Positions 3,772 through 15,606 of a DNA stretch of 43,433 nucleotides are shown in pieces; the stretch's first letter is position 1; every line of letters begins with the position of its first letter. A program made the translations under genes and the position numbers. This DNA is from a virus: positions 1-43,433 of IMG/VR virus record IMGVR_UViG_3300009497_000010. The stretch is one strand, 5' to 3'. Below the pieces are notes generated by a model. The model saw only the letters and a list, made by a program, of their open reading frames with translations. It ran no database searches and had not been told where the DNA came from.

Positions 3772-4083
3772 ATGATCACCACTGGATTCATGCCAGCAGA
3801 ACACAAGTGGAACCGGTCGATCGCACGAGCGAAGGCGGTCGAAGCACTCGCCGAGATTCTCGCCGAGTGCGACATTTGGGATCGAGTGCTCACCCTGCAA
3901 GGACGCAGGTTCGCCCAGGACGAAGGCTTCGAGACCTACGCAGGCCGCGACGAGTTCGGTCCCTGGGTATCCGTGAGCTTCGCCGAGGGACCCGCGCTGA
4001 TGCAGTTCATCCTCGACGAGAACAACGGCGACGGCATCTTCGAGCTGATCGAACACGTCGGCCAGGGTGAGGAGATCCGATGA
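3772..4083 (+). CDS. Hypothetical protein (103 aa)
   Basis: The start is set by the leader CCAACCAACGAAGGACAAGACA just before ATG, which recurs before several genes here. The protein has an amphipathic N-terminal helix (RSIARAKAVEALAEILAECDIWD) and a mixed C-terminus with GPWVSVSFAEGPALMQFIL. No family is recognised. It overlaps the next gene by 4 bases (ATGA), so the two are probably translated together. Confidence 0.75.
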   Translation: MITTGFMPAEHKWNRSIARAKAVEALAEILAECDIWDRVLTLQGRRFAQDEGFETYAGRDEFGPWVSVSFAEGPALMQFILDENNGDGIFELIEHVGQGEEIR

Positions 4084-4349
4084 CCGAGATCCACCCTGCC
4101 CACGAGAAGGCGCGACACCGGCTCGCCTTCGGTCTGGCGTCGAAGCTCGAACAGCTTCGCCCAGACTGGAGTGGCGACCGGCTCGCCGACGCAGTGCGGA
4201 ACGACACCGTCTGGCAGGCGCTGTGGCCGACCGTGCGGCGCATCGAGCCATCGATGGCAACCAGGCTGGCGACGATCGTCGTGCTCCGCCAGGGAGGCAG
4301 CAGCAGCCTGAACGACCGAACCCAACCAACAAGCAAGGACACACCATGA
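4080..4349 (+). CDS. Hypothetical protein (89 aa)
   Basis: Starts in an ATGA overlap with the previous gene and ends 4 bases into the methyltransferase start. It is a helical, Arg-rich protein (ASKLEQLRPDWSGDRLADAV, RIEPSMATRLATIVVLRQ). No known family or motif is recognised. Its C-terminus encodes the CCAACCAACAAGCAAGGA leader of the next gene, so the last residues may be shaped by that signal. Confidence 0.7.
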   Translation: MTEIHPAHEKARHRLAFGLASKLEQLRPDWSGDRLADAVRNDTVWQALWPTVRRIEPSMATRLATIVVLRQGGSSSLNDRTQPTSKDTP

Positions 4350-4957
4350 CAGTTCTCAGTTACGGCGCATGGCGCACGAACGCCGAGCTAATCGCAGACG
4401 TCGCCAAGCTCGGATACCTCGACGGCCGGGTGCTCGACCTCACCTTCGGCGAAGGCAAGTTCTGGACCGACCACCGGCCTCGGGATCTGGAGACCAACGA
4501 CCTCGACGAGGCTAAGGCCGACTGGAGCTTCGACGTGACGAGCACGGTCCCGGAGCACTGGGTCGACGCGTTCGATTCGGTCGTCTTCGATCCTCCGTAT
4601 CGGATGTCGGGTCGGCGAGATGGGCGCACGGCGCTCGTCGACACGAGCTTCGATGACCGCTTCGGTCTCACCGAGTACACCTCGCCGAACGAGGTGCTCG
4701 CTCTCATCAGCTCGGGCATTCAGTTCGCTGCCGGGTGCGTGAAGCCTGGCGGCTCGATCCTCGTGAAGTGCCAGGACCAAGTCTGCTCGGGCCGCAAGGT
4801 CTGGCAGAGCGTGCACGTCCACGAGGTCGCCACGATCCTCGGCCTTCGGGTCGCCGACATGTTTCACCTGATCCAGGGCAACGCCCGACCGCAGCCTTCG
4901 GGTCGACGGCAGGTCCACGCCCGCTCGAACGCTTCGCAGTTGCTGGTGCTGCGATGA
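4346..4957 (+). CDS. Orphan DNA amino-methyltransferase (N6-adenine or N4-cytosine)
   Basis: A 203-residue SAM-dependent methyltransferase. Motif I is LDLTFGEG (residues 30-37), motif IV is DPPY (82-85), and the C-terminus SNASQLLVLR gives the last strand. DPPY marks transfer to an exocyclic amino group of adenine or cytosine. The start at 4346 follows the repeated CAAGGACACACC leader. No restriction endonuclease gene is adjacent, so it is an orphan enzyme, possibly protecting phage DNA from host restriction. The target sequence cannot be told from the protein. Confidence 0.85.
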   Translation: MTVLSYGAWRTNAELIADVAKLGYLDGRVLDLTFGEGKFWTDHRPRDLETNDLDEAKADWSFDVTSTVPEHWVDAFDSVVFDPPYRMSGRRDGRTALVDTSFDDRFGLTEYTSPNEVLALISSGIQFAAGCVKPGGSILVKCQDQVCSGRKVWQSVHVHEVATILGLRVADMFHLIQGNARPQPSGRRQVHARSNASQLLVLR

Positions 4958-10472: not shown

Positions 10473-11000
10473 ATGGCAGATAAGAAGATCCACAAGATCG
10501 CACCCGGTCTTGAAACACTGATGACACCGATCGCTGAACTTCACCGGCTACCCAGCAACCCTCGGCTCGGCGACGTTCACGCTGTCGCTAAGTCATACAA
10601 AGAGTTCGGGCAACGCAAGCCTGTCGTGTACCAAACACGCCGAGGGAAAAAAGTTGTAGTGGCAGGCAATCATCAGCTCGAAGCTGTCGCAGGATTAGGG
10701 TGGACACACATTGCCGCGGTGTCTGCCGACGACCTCACAATGAAGCAAGCGCAAGCCTTCGCACTCGCCGACAACAGGATCGGCGAGCTGGGACTCTATG
10801 ACGAGTCTTTGCTCGTCGAGCTGCTTAGTTCTTTGCCTGCCGAGTTGGTCGACGTGACCGGATACTCGGATATCGACATCGAGCGGCTTCTTGGTACCGG
10901 TTACGACTCTGGGAGTGCACCGGAGGGTTTTGACGAGTTCGATGTCGACTCGCTCGATCTTGAACACCAATGCCCTAAGTGTGGGTTCGAGTTCGACTGA
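10473..11000 (+). CDS. ParB-N/sulfiredoxin-like protein, first gene of the modification operon
   Basis: A 175-residue ParB-N domain protein: TPIAELHRLPSNPR, a helix, then VVVAGNHQLEAVAGLGW (signature GNHQ at residues 65-68), and ALADNRIGELGLYDESLL, typical of phage ParB/methyltransferase-associated proteins. It ends in CPKCGFEFD (Cys 167 and 170), half a zinc knuckle. Stand-alone ParB-like genes often precede phage DNA methyltransferases, where they may guide or aid base modification. Its stop overlaps the methyltransferase start (TGATG). The preceding sequence ACAGGAACC is a likely ribosome site. Confidence 0.82.
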   Translation: MADKKIHKIAPGLETLMTPIAELHRLPSNPRLGDVHAVAKSYKEFGQRKPVVYQTRRGKKVVVAGNHQLEAVAGLGWTHIAAVSADDLTMKQAQAFALADNRIGELGLYDESLLVELLSSLPAELVDVTGYSDIDIERLLGTGYDSGSAPEGFDEFDVDSLDLEHQCPKCGFEFD

Positions 11001-12058
11001 TGAAACCGCCCTATCAGATCCCGTCTGTAAGTGATATCAAAGCGGGTGAGAAGACATCTGGCCTCAAGGCCGTGTCGACGTTCTCCGGCGCGGGTGGCGC
11101 TTCGCTCGGATTGGCATGGTCAGGCATCGAAGTGATCTGGGCATCAGAGTTCATCGACGCAGCCGCCGACGTGTACGAGCTAAACAATCCCGGCATTCAA
11201 GTCGACCGCCGAGACATCAGACAAGTGACAGGCAGCGAGATCCTCGACGCTGTCGGTCTCGGCGTCGGTGAACTCGACGTGTTCGAAGGTTCGCCGCCTT
11301 GTGCTTCGTTCTCCATGTCAGGGAAACGCGAAGCAGGATGGGGCAAGGTCAAGTCGTACTCCGAGACCTCCCAGAGGGTCGATGACTTGTTCTTCGAGTT
11401 CGTCCGATTAGTCGACGAGATCCAACCAAAGACCTTCATCGCAGAGAACGTCGATGGCATGACGATGGGAGTCGCTAAGGGTTATCTCAAGGAGATCGTT
11501 CTCAGGCTCCGTGCTATCGGTTACCGGGTCGGAGTCTGGCGGCTCGACTGCTCTAGACTCGGAGTCCCGCAACGAAGAGTGCGCCTAGTCATACATGGCG
11601 TCCGAGACGACCTTCAAGCAGTTCTCGTAGCCCCTAAGCCATTCGACTATGTCTACACCTGGGCCGACGCTACCAAGCAGCCTACGCCCGTTAATGACGA
11701 CCCTCTGCCACCCTGGTCCGCCGACTCGAAACTCGCACGGGTCATGTCGAAAGCTAAACCCGGCGAATCAGGCCAAGCGGTTGTCGGCACCGGCTCTTTC
11801 TTCTCGCACTACAGGCTCGCACCCGGCGAACCGGCACCCACAATCCTACAAACCAACAACTGGGTGCTGCCCCCCTACGAGAACCGACGTATCACGCTTG
11901 GTGAAGTCCGTCGGCTATGCGGATTCCCCGACGACTTCGCCCTCACTGGTAACTTCAGCCAAAGATGGGAACGACTAGGACGCGCAGTCGCGCCTCCGAT
12001 GTACAAAGCCGTCGGCGAGTCGATCATCGAAGCCTTGAAAGGACAACCCAATGGATGA
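11000..12058 (+). CDS. C5-cytosine DNA methyltransferase, predicted carboxymethyltransferase
   Basis: A 352-residue C5-cytosine methyltransferase. Motif I is FSGAGGASLGL; motif IV is GSPPCASFS with nucleophile C101; motif VI is ENV (E149); motif VIII is QRRVR. In motif X the usual LGNAV/LGNSV reads LGRAV, so the conserved Asn is Arg328 (codon at 11981-11983). The engineered M.MpeI N374K change at this residue lets the enzyme use carboxy-SAM and form 5-carboxymethylcytosine. With a CmoA homologue in the same operon, natural carboxymethyl transfer is inferred. ATG at 11000 is chosen because it overlaps the ParB stop; a GTG at 10979 is in frame but less likely. Confidence 0.9.
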   Translation: MKPPYQIPSVSDIKAGEKTSGLKAVSTFSGAGGASLGLAWSGIEVIWASEFIDAAADVYELNNPGIQVDRRDIRQVTGSEILDAVGLGVGELDVFEGSPPCASFSMSGKREAGWGKVKSYSETSQRVDDLFFEFVRLVDEIQPKTFIAENVDGMTMGVAKGYLKEIVLRLRAIGYRVGVWRLDCSRLGVPQRRVRLVIHGVRDDLQAVLVAPKPFDYVYTWADATKQPTPVNDDPLPPWSADSKLARVMSKAKPGESGQAVVGTGSFFSHYRLAPGEPAPTILQTNNWVLPPYENRRITLGEVRRLCGFPDDFALTGNFSQRWERLGRAVAPPMYKAVGESIIEALKGQPNG

Positions 12059-12890
12059 AGTGGCCAAGGAATGGAAGCGCCGACTGATGGCTGTCATCCA
12101 GGAGGGAGAGATGGAGAACATCCCGAACCTGCTTTCGGGCGGGGTCGACTCTGCGACCTTGCTCGCAGCCCAAATGGAGTTGGGAGGGCAACCTCTATGC
12201 GTGACATTCACTATCGGTGGTCGACTCCACGACGATGCCAAGATGGCGATACGGATGGCCGATCGGTACGACCTCGACGCAGAGATAGTCAACTTGGACA
12301 GGTCAAAGACTGCCCTGGTCGCCGACATCCGCAGGATCATGGATATCAGACAGACCGCAAAGAAGGCGTCCATACAGTGCGCCCAACCCATAATGCATAT
12401 CGCCGAGCGGCTTACATCTCTCGGCTTCGATCGTGCGATGATCGGTACTGGTGCAGTTTGTTTGGACGATAAGCGTGTGGCAATTCTCGTGTCACAACAA
12501 GGCGAGGAGGTTGCGCGCGAGTACAGACGGTCGAAGCTCGAAGACCGGTACACAGATTGTGGTACTGGGCACATGCACGGGGTTGCTCGCGATCTTGGCG
12601 TCACGCTCGAAGAGCCTTATTCTGACGAGCCACTACGGGACTATGCGTTGGGTCTGGACTTCTCAGAATTGAACCGCGGACCAGACGGACCGAAGCAGAA
12701 AGGGATCGCAGTTCGAGCGTTCCCCGAGTTCTGGTCGACCCCTGGGTTCTGGCGTCGGAACTCGCCGCTGCAAGTAAACTCAGGCATCAGAGAGTGGCAT
12801 GACCTACTGTTGGTCGACCCCGAGTTCAATACTCGCGGACTGAAATCTGTCGTAGGTGTGTACAACGATATGTTCGCTGGGAAGGTTTGA
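12051..12890 (+). CDS. Asparagine-synthetase-like PP-loop ATP ligase without glutaminase domain
   Basis: A 279-residue protein matching only the C-terminal synthetase half of AsnB. The PP-loop is LLSGGVDSATLL (SGGVDS at residues 29-34). A GTGAVCLDD segment (132-140) aligns with the AsnB SGEGSDE loop. EPYSDEPLRDYAL (188-200) matches the AsnB RVPFLD..L..A block, followed by a Lys (K215). AsnB adenylates a carboxylate and an amine attacks it. There is no N-terminal Cys glutaminase, so the amine must come from elsewhere. In this operon I infer amidation of a carboxymethyl base. It overlaps the methyltransferase by 8 bases. Confidence 0.85.
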   Translation: MDEVAKEWKRRLMAVIQEGEMENIPNLLSGGVDSATLLAAQMELGGQPLCVTFTIGGRLHDDAKMAIRMADRYDLDAEIVNLDRSKTALVADIRRIMDIRQTAKKASIQCAQPIMHIAERLTSLGFDRAMIGTGAVCLDDKRVAILVSQQGEEVAREYRRSKLEDRYTDCGTGHMHGVARDLGVTLEEPYSDEPLRDYALGLDFSELNRGPDGPKQKGIAVRAFPEFWSTPGFWRRNSPLQVNSGIREWHDLLLVDPEFNTRGLKSVVGVYNDMFAGKV

Positions 12891-12891
12891 A

Positions 12892-13863
12892 ATGAAGCTG
12901 ACAGAAGGCCCATACGCTGTTTCTTTGGAACAGGAGTTCGGTTCGTTCCTGACGTCTCACGGTGATGCGTTGCCACTGCAATCGACGGTGGCTTGTTCGT
13001 CAGGAACAACAGCGCTGTTCGGTGCTTTTGTCGGTTGCGGGATCGGCCCGGGTGACGAAGTGGTAGTGCCAGGGTACGGCTTCCAGGCGGCGGCTTTAGC
13101 TGTGTTGATGGTCGGGGCGCAGCCCGTATTCGCTGATGTCGATCCTGTCTGGGGGCTGATCGACCCGGACACTGTCCCGGTCGACGACCCAAAAGCGATA
13201 GTGGCCATCGACCTTGACGGTCGGGTAGCCAACTACGAACGCATCAACGAATTGTTCCCTGATGCTTGGATCGTCGAAGATGCTGCACCGTCTTTGGGTT
13301 CGGCCGGTCTTTGTTCCGAATATGTGGATGTGGCGATCTTCTCCGGGAACGAATCCAAGAAGTGGTCGTGCGGCGAAGGCGGGATGATCTCGACACCCAG
13401 CCGAGATATCGCACATGTGGCGAGGGCCGCCATGAGGTTCGGGGAAACGGACTACAAACCCGCGGGTGGATATCGCACCTCGAACGTGCGAGGTATGAAC
13501 GGGAAGATACCTGAACTGTGCGCAATGACCGGACTCGCTGACCTGCCTTTCGTTCGTGGACGGTCAATAGAGGCGGACAGGTCGCGTAGCATCATCTCTA
13601 TCGAGCTGGGACTGCCTGAAGTCCCGTCTGGCTCGACAGTCGCATGGCACAAGATACGTCTGCCGATAGGGCTACGGGATCGATGGGCGGGACCAACCAC
13701 ACCCACCACGGTCGCTCCATTGGAAGACCATCCGTTGTTCTCTGATTACGTGACGAGACCTCTGGTCGGCGCCCGCCAGTTCCACGAGTCTACTTTCGTG
13801 ATCGGCGACAGAACCCATACTCCTTGGTCGGGCACTCTGCCTGGCTTCTTGAAAGGCAAATAA
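12892..13863 (+). CDS. DegT/DnrJ/EryC1-family PLP aminotransferase
   Basis: A 323-residue fold-type I aminotransferase of the sugar/cyclitol class. ACSSGTTAL (residues 34-42) holds the PLP phosphate, GDEVVVPGYGFQA is the family signature, VEDAA places D130 at the PLP ring nitrogen, and SGNESKKWSCGEGG gives K156 as the likely Schiff-base lysine. Relatives such as StsC and BtrS aminate inososes. It is shorter than the usual 370-400 residues. An amine for the preceding ligase, perhaps on an inositol ring, is inferred. The ATG at 12892 follows a GAAGG site. Confidence 0.88.
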   Translation: MKLTEGPYAVSLEQEFGSFLTSHGDALPLQSTVACSSGTTALFGAFVGCGIGPGDEVVVPGYGFQAAALAVLMVGAQPVFADVDPVWGLIDPDTVPVDDPKAIVAIDLDGRVANYERINELFPDAWIVEDAAPSLGSAGLCSEYVDVAIFSGNESKKWSCGEGGMISTPSRDIAHVARAAMRFGETDYKPAGGYRTSNVRGMNGKIPELCAMTGLADLPFVRGRSIEADRSRSIISIELGLPEVPSGSTVAWHKIRLPIGLRDRWAGPTTPTTVAPLEDHPLFSDYVTRPLVGARQFHESTFVIGDRTHTPWSGTLPGFLKGK

Positions 13864-14924
13864 TGAGCAATGGAAATCGTAAGATCCGAACCGGCTTGGT
13901 TGGGGTAGGAAACTGTGCCGCTGCGTTATTGGAAGGCATCCAGTGGTACGCCGAGAACCCCGGGGAGACGAAGGGCCTGTTGTCCCCGGACATCGACGGA
14001 TACAAGATAGGTGACATCGATGTTGTGATGGCGTTCGATGTCGATGTTCGTAAGGTTGGTTTGACGATCGGAGAGGCAGCAGAGTTCAATGAACGACGAT
14101 TGGCGAAGCCGCTGAACTTCCCAGGGCCAGTGATGCCGTCTCCACGGCTAGACGGGCTTGCGTCGACTTCGATTGTCGAAACCACGGACGACATGACGGC
14201 GTCTGTCGAAGACATCGCACATGAGCTGCGAATGCAGAACCTCGACGTGTTGGTGAATTACCTGCCAGTGGGGTCGACGCTGGCATCGGAACTGTACGCT
14301 CTCGCAGCCGCAGAAGCCGGTGTGGCTTTCCTGAACTGCATACCAGTCGAGATCGCACGCAACGCCACTATCGCCGAACGGTTCGCCCTTCTGAACGTCC
14401 CGTTGATCGGTGATGACATCAAGTCGCAATATGGAGCGACGATCTTGCACAGGTCGCTGGTACGTATTTGCGCCGAGCGTGGCGTCCACTTGGAATCCAC
14501 CTACCAGTTGAACGTCGGAGGCAACGCAGATTTCCGAAACATGCTGGACCAATCGAGACTCACAGACAAGAGGATCTCGAAGACCACTTCGGTGACCGAC
14601 GTGTACCCAGTAGACAAAGTCCATATCGGCCCGTCCGATTATGTCGACCATCTCGATGACACCAAGATCGCTTTCATCAACCTGGACATGGTCGGGTTTG
14701 CCGGGTCGCCGATGTCGGTGGATCTCAAATTGGAGGTCATCGACTCCCCGAACTCTGCTGGCATCGTGGTTGACGGAATCCGTTACCTAGCAGTGGCCAA
14801 GAACCGTGGCATCGGTGGAGTTCTCGACGCGCCGTCTGGGTTCCTGATGAAAGCACCCCAGAACCACACAAACGACGATCTCGGGGCGAAGCGCGCAGCC
14901 GTAGCCTTCTTGTCAGATGAGTGA
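13863..14924 (+). CDS. ino1: myo-Inositol-1-phosphate synthase
   Basis: A 353-residue homologue of actinobacterial Ino1. The NAD-binding start is GLVGVGNCAAALL; GDDIKSQ (183-189), LNVGGNADFRNML (216-228), KVHIGPSD and LKLEVIDSPNSAG (288-300) match the catalytic blocks of the Mycobacterium enzyme, so activity is likely. The reaction turns glucose 6-phosphate into inositol phosphate with internal NAD redox. Actinobacteria use inositol for mycothiol and phosphatidylinositol, but this position between an aminotransferase and a CmoA homologue suggests supply of a cyclitol for DNA modification. Its start overlaps the aminotransferase stop (TAATG). Confidence 0.93.
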   Translation: MSNGNRKIRTGLVGVGNCAAALLEGIQWYAENPGETKGLLSPDIDGYKIGDIDVVMAFDVDVRKVGLTIGEAAEFNERRLAKPLNFPGPVMPSPRLDGLASTSIVETTDDMTASVEDIAHELRMQNLDVLVNYLPVGSTLASELYALAAAEAGVAFLNCIPVEIARNATIAERFALLNVPLIGDDIKSQYGATILHRSLVRICAERGVHLESTYQLNVGGNADFRNMLDQSRLTDKRISKTTSVTDVYPVDKVHIGPSDYVDHLDDTKIAFINLDMVGFAGSPMSVDLKLEVIDSPNSAGIVVDGIRYLAVAKNRGIGGVLDAPSGFLMKAPQNHTNDDLGAKRAAVAFLSDE

Positions 14925-15606
14925 CCAAACGATGCCCGTAGGCAAATGGGAGTTCGACGAGACTGTGACGGCCGTGTTCGACGACATGCTGGCCAGGTCG
15001 ATACCAGAGTTCAAAACAATGCGGGCCGCTGTTTCCGACATCGCCTGCGAGTTCCTACCAAACGGAGGTGTTGTCCTCGACGCCGGATGCTCTAGAGGCG
15101 GCGCACTAGCAGCCGTAATAGCCCGAAGACCAGACTGCACCGCCGTAGGTCTCGAAATATCGGAACCGATGCGACAAAGCGCCGCAGACCGATTCAAACA
15201 CGACTCAAACGTCACCATCCTCCGCTGGGATCTCCGCAACGGCATCCCAGACCAAAGAGTCGACGTCACCCTCGCCGTACTAACCCTGCAATTCACACCC
15301 ATCGAGTACCGCCAACAGATCATCGGCTCAATACGAGAACGAACAAACGGGCCACTCATCCTCGTCGAGAAAGTACTCGGCCGAGGACACCAAATCGACC
15401 AGAAAATGGTTGATCTCTACTACAGAATGAAACGATCACACGGCTACACCCAAGAACAAATCGACACCAAGCGACACTCGCTCGAAGGCCAACTCGTACC
15501 CCTCACCGCAGCAGGGAACGAAACCCTGCTCAAAGACTGCGGATATCAATCAGTCGACTGCTTCTGGCGATGGATGAACTTCGCCGCATGGATCGCCCTG
15601 CCATAA
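14917..15606 (+). CDS. cmoA: CmoA-like carboxy-S-adenosylmethionine synthase
   Basis: A 229-residue protein alignable to E. coli CmoA (247 residues) over its length. The N-terminus [20 protein letters not shown] matches [30 protein letters not shown] is the SAM loop; LTLQFTP matches [25 protein letters not shown] matches NGYSELEISQKRSMLEN, keeping Arg186 at the place of Arg199, which binds the carboxylate; and the Trp/Phe-rich end matches too. CmoA converts SAM plus prephenate to carboxy-SAM for tRNA cmo5U with CmoB. No CmoB is seen here, so I infer that the product feeds the cytosine enzyme. It overlaps ino1 by 8 bases. Confidence 0.9.
   Translation: [229 protein letters not shown]

Follow-up and report, generated by a model that had tools for sequence, protein, structure and literature searches.

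The locus described here raises the question of what a phage would make with a cytosine-C5-methyltransferase homologue that has an arginine in place of the motif X asparagine and that is encoded close to a homologue of CmoA. A sequence-only reading had proposed that this residue, Arg328, links the methyltransferase to the CmoA homologue, and the proposal is supported by the contact that the corresponding arginine makes in the structure of a homologue and by a near-perfect association of the arginine with cmoA. The link between the arginine and carboxy-SAM (Cx-SAM) as such is known already, having been published in December 2025 (PMC12783734), and is not new here. The new part, as far as the gene content tells, is a carboxymethylcytosine operon with a built-in amine supply that is probably aminocyclitol-forming.

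Operon layout and the phage

The window, that is, the whole stretch of DNA that was analysed, is an IMG/VR virus record of 43,433 bases that comes without a host genome. It encodes a terminase (PHROG 38), a portal protein, and major head and tail proteins, together with a WhiB-type regulator (PF02467). The relatives of its terminase and capsid proteins belong mostly to phages of actinobacteria, and thus the host is likely to be actinobacterial. Genes in the order ParB-CmoX-CmoY-DegT-MIPS-CmoA occupy bases 10473-15606 (Table 1), and adjoining genes either share 1 to 8 bases or have a gap of one base between them, an arrangement that would make the region a single translationally coupled operon for cytosine hypermodification. 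CmoX genes often have a ParBc gene, like the first gene of this operon, as a neighbour (PMC12783734). Besides CmoX, the window encodes another predicted DNA methyltransferase at 4067-4957, which matches PHROG 24333 (5e-17) but no Pfam family.

Table 1. Features of the putative hypermodification operon (positions in the window)
Feature	Positions	Strand	Evidence
ParB-domain-like protein, operon gene 1	10473..11000	+	PHROG 620 ParB-like, 3e-33
CmoX-type cytosine-C5-carboxymethyltransferase (predicted), C5-MTase fold	11000..12058	+	PF00145 168 bits; 8YF3 best PDB match
Codon CGC, Arg328 at motif X Asn position; predicted Cx-SAM carboxylate contact	11981..11983	+	aligned with R350
CmoY-type ATP-dependent amide ligase (predicted), asparagine-synthetase-like	12051..12890	+	PF00733
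DegT/DnrJ/EryC1/StrS aminotransferase, N-terminus shorter than usual	12892..13863	+	PF01041 120 bits
Myo-inositol-1-phosphate-synthase homologue (MIPS)	13863..14924	+	PF01658 102 bits
CmoA-type carboxy-SAM synthase (predicted)	14917..15606	+	E. coli CmoA 4gek 85 bits; YecO 1im8 98 bits

The arginine at motif X

The arginine codon is read in frame within the C5-methyltransferase open reading frame. The residue number depends on the start codon, being Arg328 with ATG at 11000 and Arg335 with GTG at 10979; the former is the likelier start because it overlaps the ParB stop codon (TGATGA) and gives a homologue-like N-terminus (MKPPYQIP). In a phmmer search against the PDB, the stretch ERLGRAVAPP aligned without gaps to ERVGRMVPPL of SpCmoX (8YF3) and to RQVGNAVPPP of DNMT1, and therefore the arginine stands at the position of the motif X asparagine. 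An alignment of 12 rows likewise placed it at the position of M.HhaI N304 and SpCmoX R350. The equivalence of M.MpeI N374 to the motif X asparagine, on which the sequence-only reading had relied, is stated in PMC12783734, and the position of the arginine did not move in any alignment.

SpCmoX, from Synechococcus phage S-B43, is a proven cytosine-C5-carboxymethyltransferase (PDB 8YF3; Yang et al., Nat Commun 2025, PMC12783734), and among PDB entries it matches the window protein best, in sequence as well as in fold. It was the top phmmer match in the PDB (2e-55, versus 3e-23 for DNMT1), and an AlphaFold model of the window CmoX (12 sequences, pLDDT 83) had 8YF3 as its best fold match (1.1e-29, the next being 3.2e-22). 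R350 of SpCmoX corresponds to M.HhaI N304 and contacts the carboxymethyl group of Cx-SAM in the crystal structure; the wild-type enzyme accepts Cx-SAM as its sole cofactor, and the R350N variant uses neither cofactor (PMC12783734). For this last reason, a return to SAM use in an R328N variant, which had been suggested as a test, is not to be expected.

The other catalytic motifs of the window CmoX are intact (SPPC at 11291-11302, ENV at 11444-11452 and QRRVR at 11570-11584), and the arginine column is kept in homologues with cmoA, in agreement with the earlier view that the change is not a sign of decay. The protein thus combines SPPC and the C5-methyltransferase fold with the motif X arginine and a cmoA gene in its neighbourhood. 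In PMC12783734, 5,615 CmoX candidates with SPPC and motif X arginine are reported, and the window protein shares these two traits. Therefore, the observation at Arg328 was right, and it is known in kind.

Association of the arginine with cmoA

Homologues were collected from viral contigs and from bacterial and archaeal genomes with the methyltransferase as the sole query, and one of the survey alignments included an asparagine-bearing row (L012) on purpose. Residues at the motif X column were counted for methyltransferase-seeded loci only, after the removal of duplicates. Among the genomes, cmoA was found nearby in 34 of 38 arginine loci and in none of 39 others (Fisher 9e-18), and among the viral contigs in 72 of 77 arginine loci and in none of 7 others (Fisher 2e-7), although the sequences are mutually related and these P values overstate their independence. 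The co-occurrence that the sequence-only reading had proposed to look for is thus near-perfect. The asparagine class yielded no counter-example in the survey. Wherever a locus contains cmoA, its full homologue has arginine at this column, the sole exception (L006) being a second and partial C5-methyltransferase open reading frame.

Arginine homologues lacking a cmoA neighbour would speak against the link, and it should be noted that in most of the arginine loci where cmoA is missing, the sequence stops a short way from the gene. Three have full flanks: in one (L332) a CmoA-like gene lies about 15 kb away, in another (L394) such a gene is found on a different contig of the same genome, and the third (L342) is a 10-kb fragment. 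These loci were therefore rejected as counter-evidence. Several CmoX homologue loci each were seen in Verrucomicrobiota MAGs (L346-L349, L360-L364, L367-L373 and L376), with at least 6 in one bin.

The survey and the intact motifs rule out an origin of the arginine by decay or chance. They also bear on the alternative that the arginine is a neutral variant and the protein an ordinary cytosine methyltransferase dependent on SAM. The C5-methyltransferase fold and the catalytic motifs are intact, as this alternative would have it, but the association with cmoA, the best match to 8YF3, and the published structure and assays, in which the wild-type homologue is specific for Cx-SAM (PMC12783734), make it very improbable. 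Independently of this locus, the survey provides a simple sequence rule that separates carboxymethyltransferases from methyltransferases.

The CmoA and CmoY homologues

The window CmoA can be aligned over its whole length with YecO (1im8) and with E. coli CmoA (4gek), in the latter case with KRHSLE on KRSMLE; the arginine of this conserved KR..LE stretch has a role in carboxylate binding. Its best family is NCBIfam TIGR00740 (CmoA), with a score of 135 bits that lies under the equivalog cut-off of 193.3, as does that of the homologue in a divergent phage contig described below (L131, 167 bits). Since this cut-off was set on bacterial CmoA, the low score weakens the name and not the inferred activity. 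In passing, cmoA genes of another setting were observed in many viral contigs (L069:5925-7517 and similar loci among L057-L090), which lie beside a ParB gene and a gene for a ParB-domain protein of about 530 amino acids. The C-terminal part of the latter is class I methyltransferase-like, the locus contains no C5-methyltransferase, and CmoA may have in this protein a partner that is not of the C5 type. The authors of PMC12783734 report that their search gave no candidates for N6-adenine or N4-cytosine.

CmoY of the window is a relative of the S-B43 CmoY and has the PP-loop SGGVDS at 12135-12152 but not a glutaminase domain. The nearest folds of its model (pLDDT 90) are AsnB (asparagine synthetase) and beta-lactam synthetase, that is, amide-forming ligases. 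When 45 CmoYs were placed in a tree, those linked to a DegT gene (from the window, L131 and L014) formed one clade with a support of 100/99, to which neither the glycine ligase of S-B43 nor the glutaminase-fused type belongs. These three have lost the AsnB-like ADxxxG that is seen in many others and show GTG[AG]V in its place. Bacterial genomes yielded no prophages with a CmoY of this type. For several clusters of CmoY, active sites of an unusual kind have been reported, with amines that are still to be found (PMC12783734).

The sister group of the DegT-linked clade includes the CmoY of L179, a locus with a different amine-related gene, for an AdoMet decarboxylase, between CmoY and CmoA. A SET-domain gene shares this interval with the AdoMet decarboxylase gene (PF02675; L179:8710-9699), and CmoY might there be supplied with decarboxy-SAM or an amine of the polyamine type.

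A recurring cassette with DegT and MIPS

The DegT homologue has kept its PLP lysine (K156, 13357-13359) and the other invariant residues. Its closest curated families are sugar-nucleotide aminotransferases, and its relatives in the PDB include 2-deoxy-scyllo-inosose aminotransferase (2c7t). The MIPS homologue has kept nearly all conserved polar residues; its closest PDB match is an inositol-3-phosphate synthase (1gr0, 286 bits), and a five-membered cyclitol-phosphate synthase is also matched (6k96, 207 bits).

A search for MIPS relatives led to a divergent phage contig of 92 kb (IMGVR_UViG_3300028840_004217, L131) that repeats the order CmoX-CmoY-DegT-MIPS-CmoA, with protein identities of 50, 52, 38, 47 and 50%, respectively. 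In a third contig (L014), the order is CmoY-DegT-CmoA and a terminase gene comes next; this contig begins inside CmoY and has no visible MIPS. Such insertions are rare, and of the 135 distinct CmoX/CmoA loci, those with both MIPS and DegT belonged to just two lineages. Conversely, among the best 80 viral DegT loci, a strong cmoA match was confined to the lineages of the window, L131 and L014. The MIPS sequences of the two complete cassettes are long-branched and were not recovered as sisters. UDG-superfamily genes (PF03167) were seen in or beside CmoX/CmoA cassettes of three phages (L131:9103-9621, L280:8586-9053 and L317:6516-6974); the match in L131, which precedes CmoA, is weak and below the curated cut-off.

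MIPS is not a general partner of cmoA, as most viral MIPS loci are without it. About 20 such loci (L120-L176, e.g. L134:14254-15429 and L158:13025-14242) have a highly diverged C5-methyltransferase-like gene within about 8 kb, in many cases with CPCAGLS for PPC, and these are perhaps another MIPS-linked DNA modification. In Stenotrophomonas phage Moby (L093:5995-9687), MIPS adjoins genes for the modification of DNA with 7-deazaguanine, namely QueC, a TGT-like gene and QueE.

In one alternative, 5-carboxymethylcytosine (5cxmC) is made but CmoY adds glycine or a ready host amine, with MIPS and DegT carried along for inositol metabolism or surface sugars. The S-B43 CmoY indeed takes glycine, and MIPS is present in many phages without cmoA, including phage Moby. 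However, DegT and MIPS are embedded in the coupled operon, flanked by CmoY and CmoA, and two divergent phages share this arrangement; moreover, the CmoYs that go with DegT make up a separate clade in which the motif is changed, and the best 80 viral DegT loci have no strong cmoA match beyond the three lineages; this alternative is therefore regarded as unlikely, albeit one to be taken seriously. Somewhat less probable still is a second alternative, in which the amine is formed by DegT on a sugar or sugar nucleotide and MIPS acts indirectly or on the aminated product. It would agree with the closest curated DegT families and with the DegT of L014, which has no visible MIPS at its side, but both complete cassettes contain MIPS as well as DegT, and a nucleotide-sugar amine would presumably be a very large substrate for CmoY.

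A putative route to an amide-linked cytosine modification

The following sequence of reactions is preferred over these alternatives. CmoA would form carboxy-SAM from SAM and prephenate, and CmoX, in which Arg328 would hold the extra carboxylate in place of the motif X asparagine and thereby select Cx-SAM, would transfer the carboxymethyl group to cytosine C5 in the phage DNA, giving 5cxmC. CmoY would adenylate the carboxylate of 5cxmC and then form an amide bond to an amine. MIPS would convert glucose-6-phosphate to inositol phosphate, and DegT would turn a ketone into an amine, giving an aminocyclitol or a similar amino-ring. The bulky amide might shield the phage DNA from restriction.

The genes for an aminocyclitol route are partly present in the phage: MIPS and a PLP aminotransferase with their active-site residues are encoded. 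The records of the window, L131 and L014 were searched for a PF01408 dehydrogenase and an inositol monophosphatase (PF00459), and neither turned up, for which reason the idea that the phage itself supplies the missing steps was rejected. Therefore, the phage genes alone do not complete the pathway, and either the host supplies the steps or the route differs; the oxidation, and the phosphatase reaction if needed, would be host-supplied or by-passed. The keto intermediate of MIPS is an inosose phosphate, which might offer a short cut. The MIPS sequences showed no residue change that could account for the keto intermediate being set free, and G93S is the sole change in a conserved column that is plainly common to both cassette enzymes.

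The chemistry of the window phage, and the identity of the amine most of all, is predicted from genomic evidence, for which gene identities, active-site residues, the association of arginine with cmoA, the repeated order of the genes and the grouping of the CmoYs were established directly. Carboxymethyl transfer can be assumed with high confidence, and amide ligation is also very likely, if a little less so. An origin of the amine from MIPS and DegT is probable, and the chances that it is specifically an amino-inositol are about even. The explanation as a whole, a 5cxmC operon with an amide-linked amine, most likely of the aminocyclitol type and derived from MIPS and DegT, appears reasonably probable from the gene content. 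The match of Arg328 and of the whole protein to SpCmoX, the association with cmoA, the coupled genes, the recurring order, the CmoY clade, the amide-ligase fold, the kept DegT and MIPS residues, the AdoMet decarboxylase of L179 and the analogy to hygromycin A were counted in its favour; counted against it were the missing dehydrogenase and phosphatase, the many substrates of DegT enzymes and their closest curated families, the CmoA score under the equivalog cut-off, the restriction of MIPS plus DegT to two lineages, the long branches of the two cassette MIPS sequences, and the absence of a visible MIPS from L014.

It is tempting to propose, although the chances are slightly less than even, that an aminocyclitol (an amino-inositol or its phosphate) amide-linked to 5-carboxymethylcytosine is a natural DNA base and, more generally, that phages vary what is attached to their cytosines by placing different genes for amine formation, such as MIPS plus DegT or AdoMet decarboxylase, in the interval from CmoY to CmoA. 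No papers on inositol or aminocyclitol DNA bases were found in the literature searched, and the words 'inositol' and 'aminotransferase' are absent from the main text of PMC12783734. The cassette names a candidate amine, of the aminocyclitol type and indicated by two genes of the same operon, for one of the unusual CmoY groups of that study. If the proposal is true, antibiotic-type aminocyclitol chemistry would be joined to DNA modification, a specific new nucleoside mass would be predicted, and the ligase might attach polyhydroxylated rings to DNA.

Comparison with known systems

The engineered M.MpeI N374K (cited in PMC12783734) resembles the window CmoX in that a basic residue in place of the motif X asparagine permits the use of Cx-SAM; it differs in that its lysine was engineered and its target is CG, whereas the window enzyme has a natural arginine and a CmoA of its own. 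The bacterial CmoA/CmoB tRNA modification also relies on a CmoA that makes Cx-SAM, but the acceptor enzyme in the window is a DNA C5-methyltransferase homologue and not CmoB. For hygromycin A, a route has been proposed in which MIPS, a phosphatase, a dehydrogenase and an aminotransferase convert glucose-6-phosphate to an inosamine (PMC10949010). MIPS and an aminotransferase are common to both systems, but the antibiotic cluster also has the phosphatase and the dehydrogenase, which were not found in the phage, and its product is not put on DNA.

The closest known system is that of phage S-B43, in which CmoA makes Cx-SAM, CmoX forms 5cxmC in a GC context and CmoY ligates glycine (PMC12783734). 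Both have a CmoX with SPPC and motif X arginine, a phage CmoA and an asparagine-synthetase-like ligase, and the first two reactions would be the same. However, the gene order in S-B43 is CmoA-CmoY-CmoX, its locus is without DegT or MIPS, and its CmoY takes glycine, whereas the window CmoY belongs to another clade, with GTGAV for ADxxxG.
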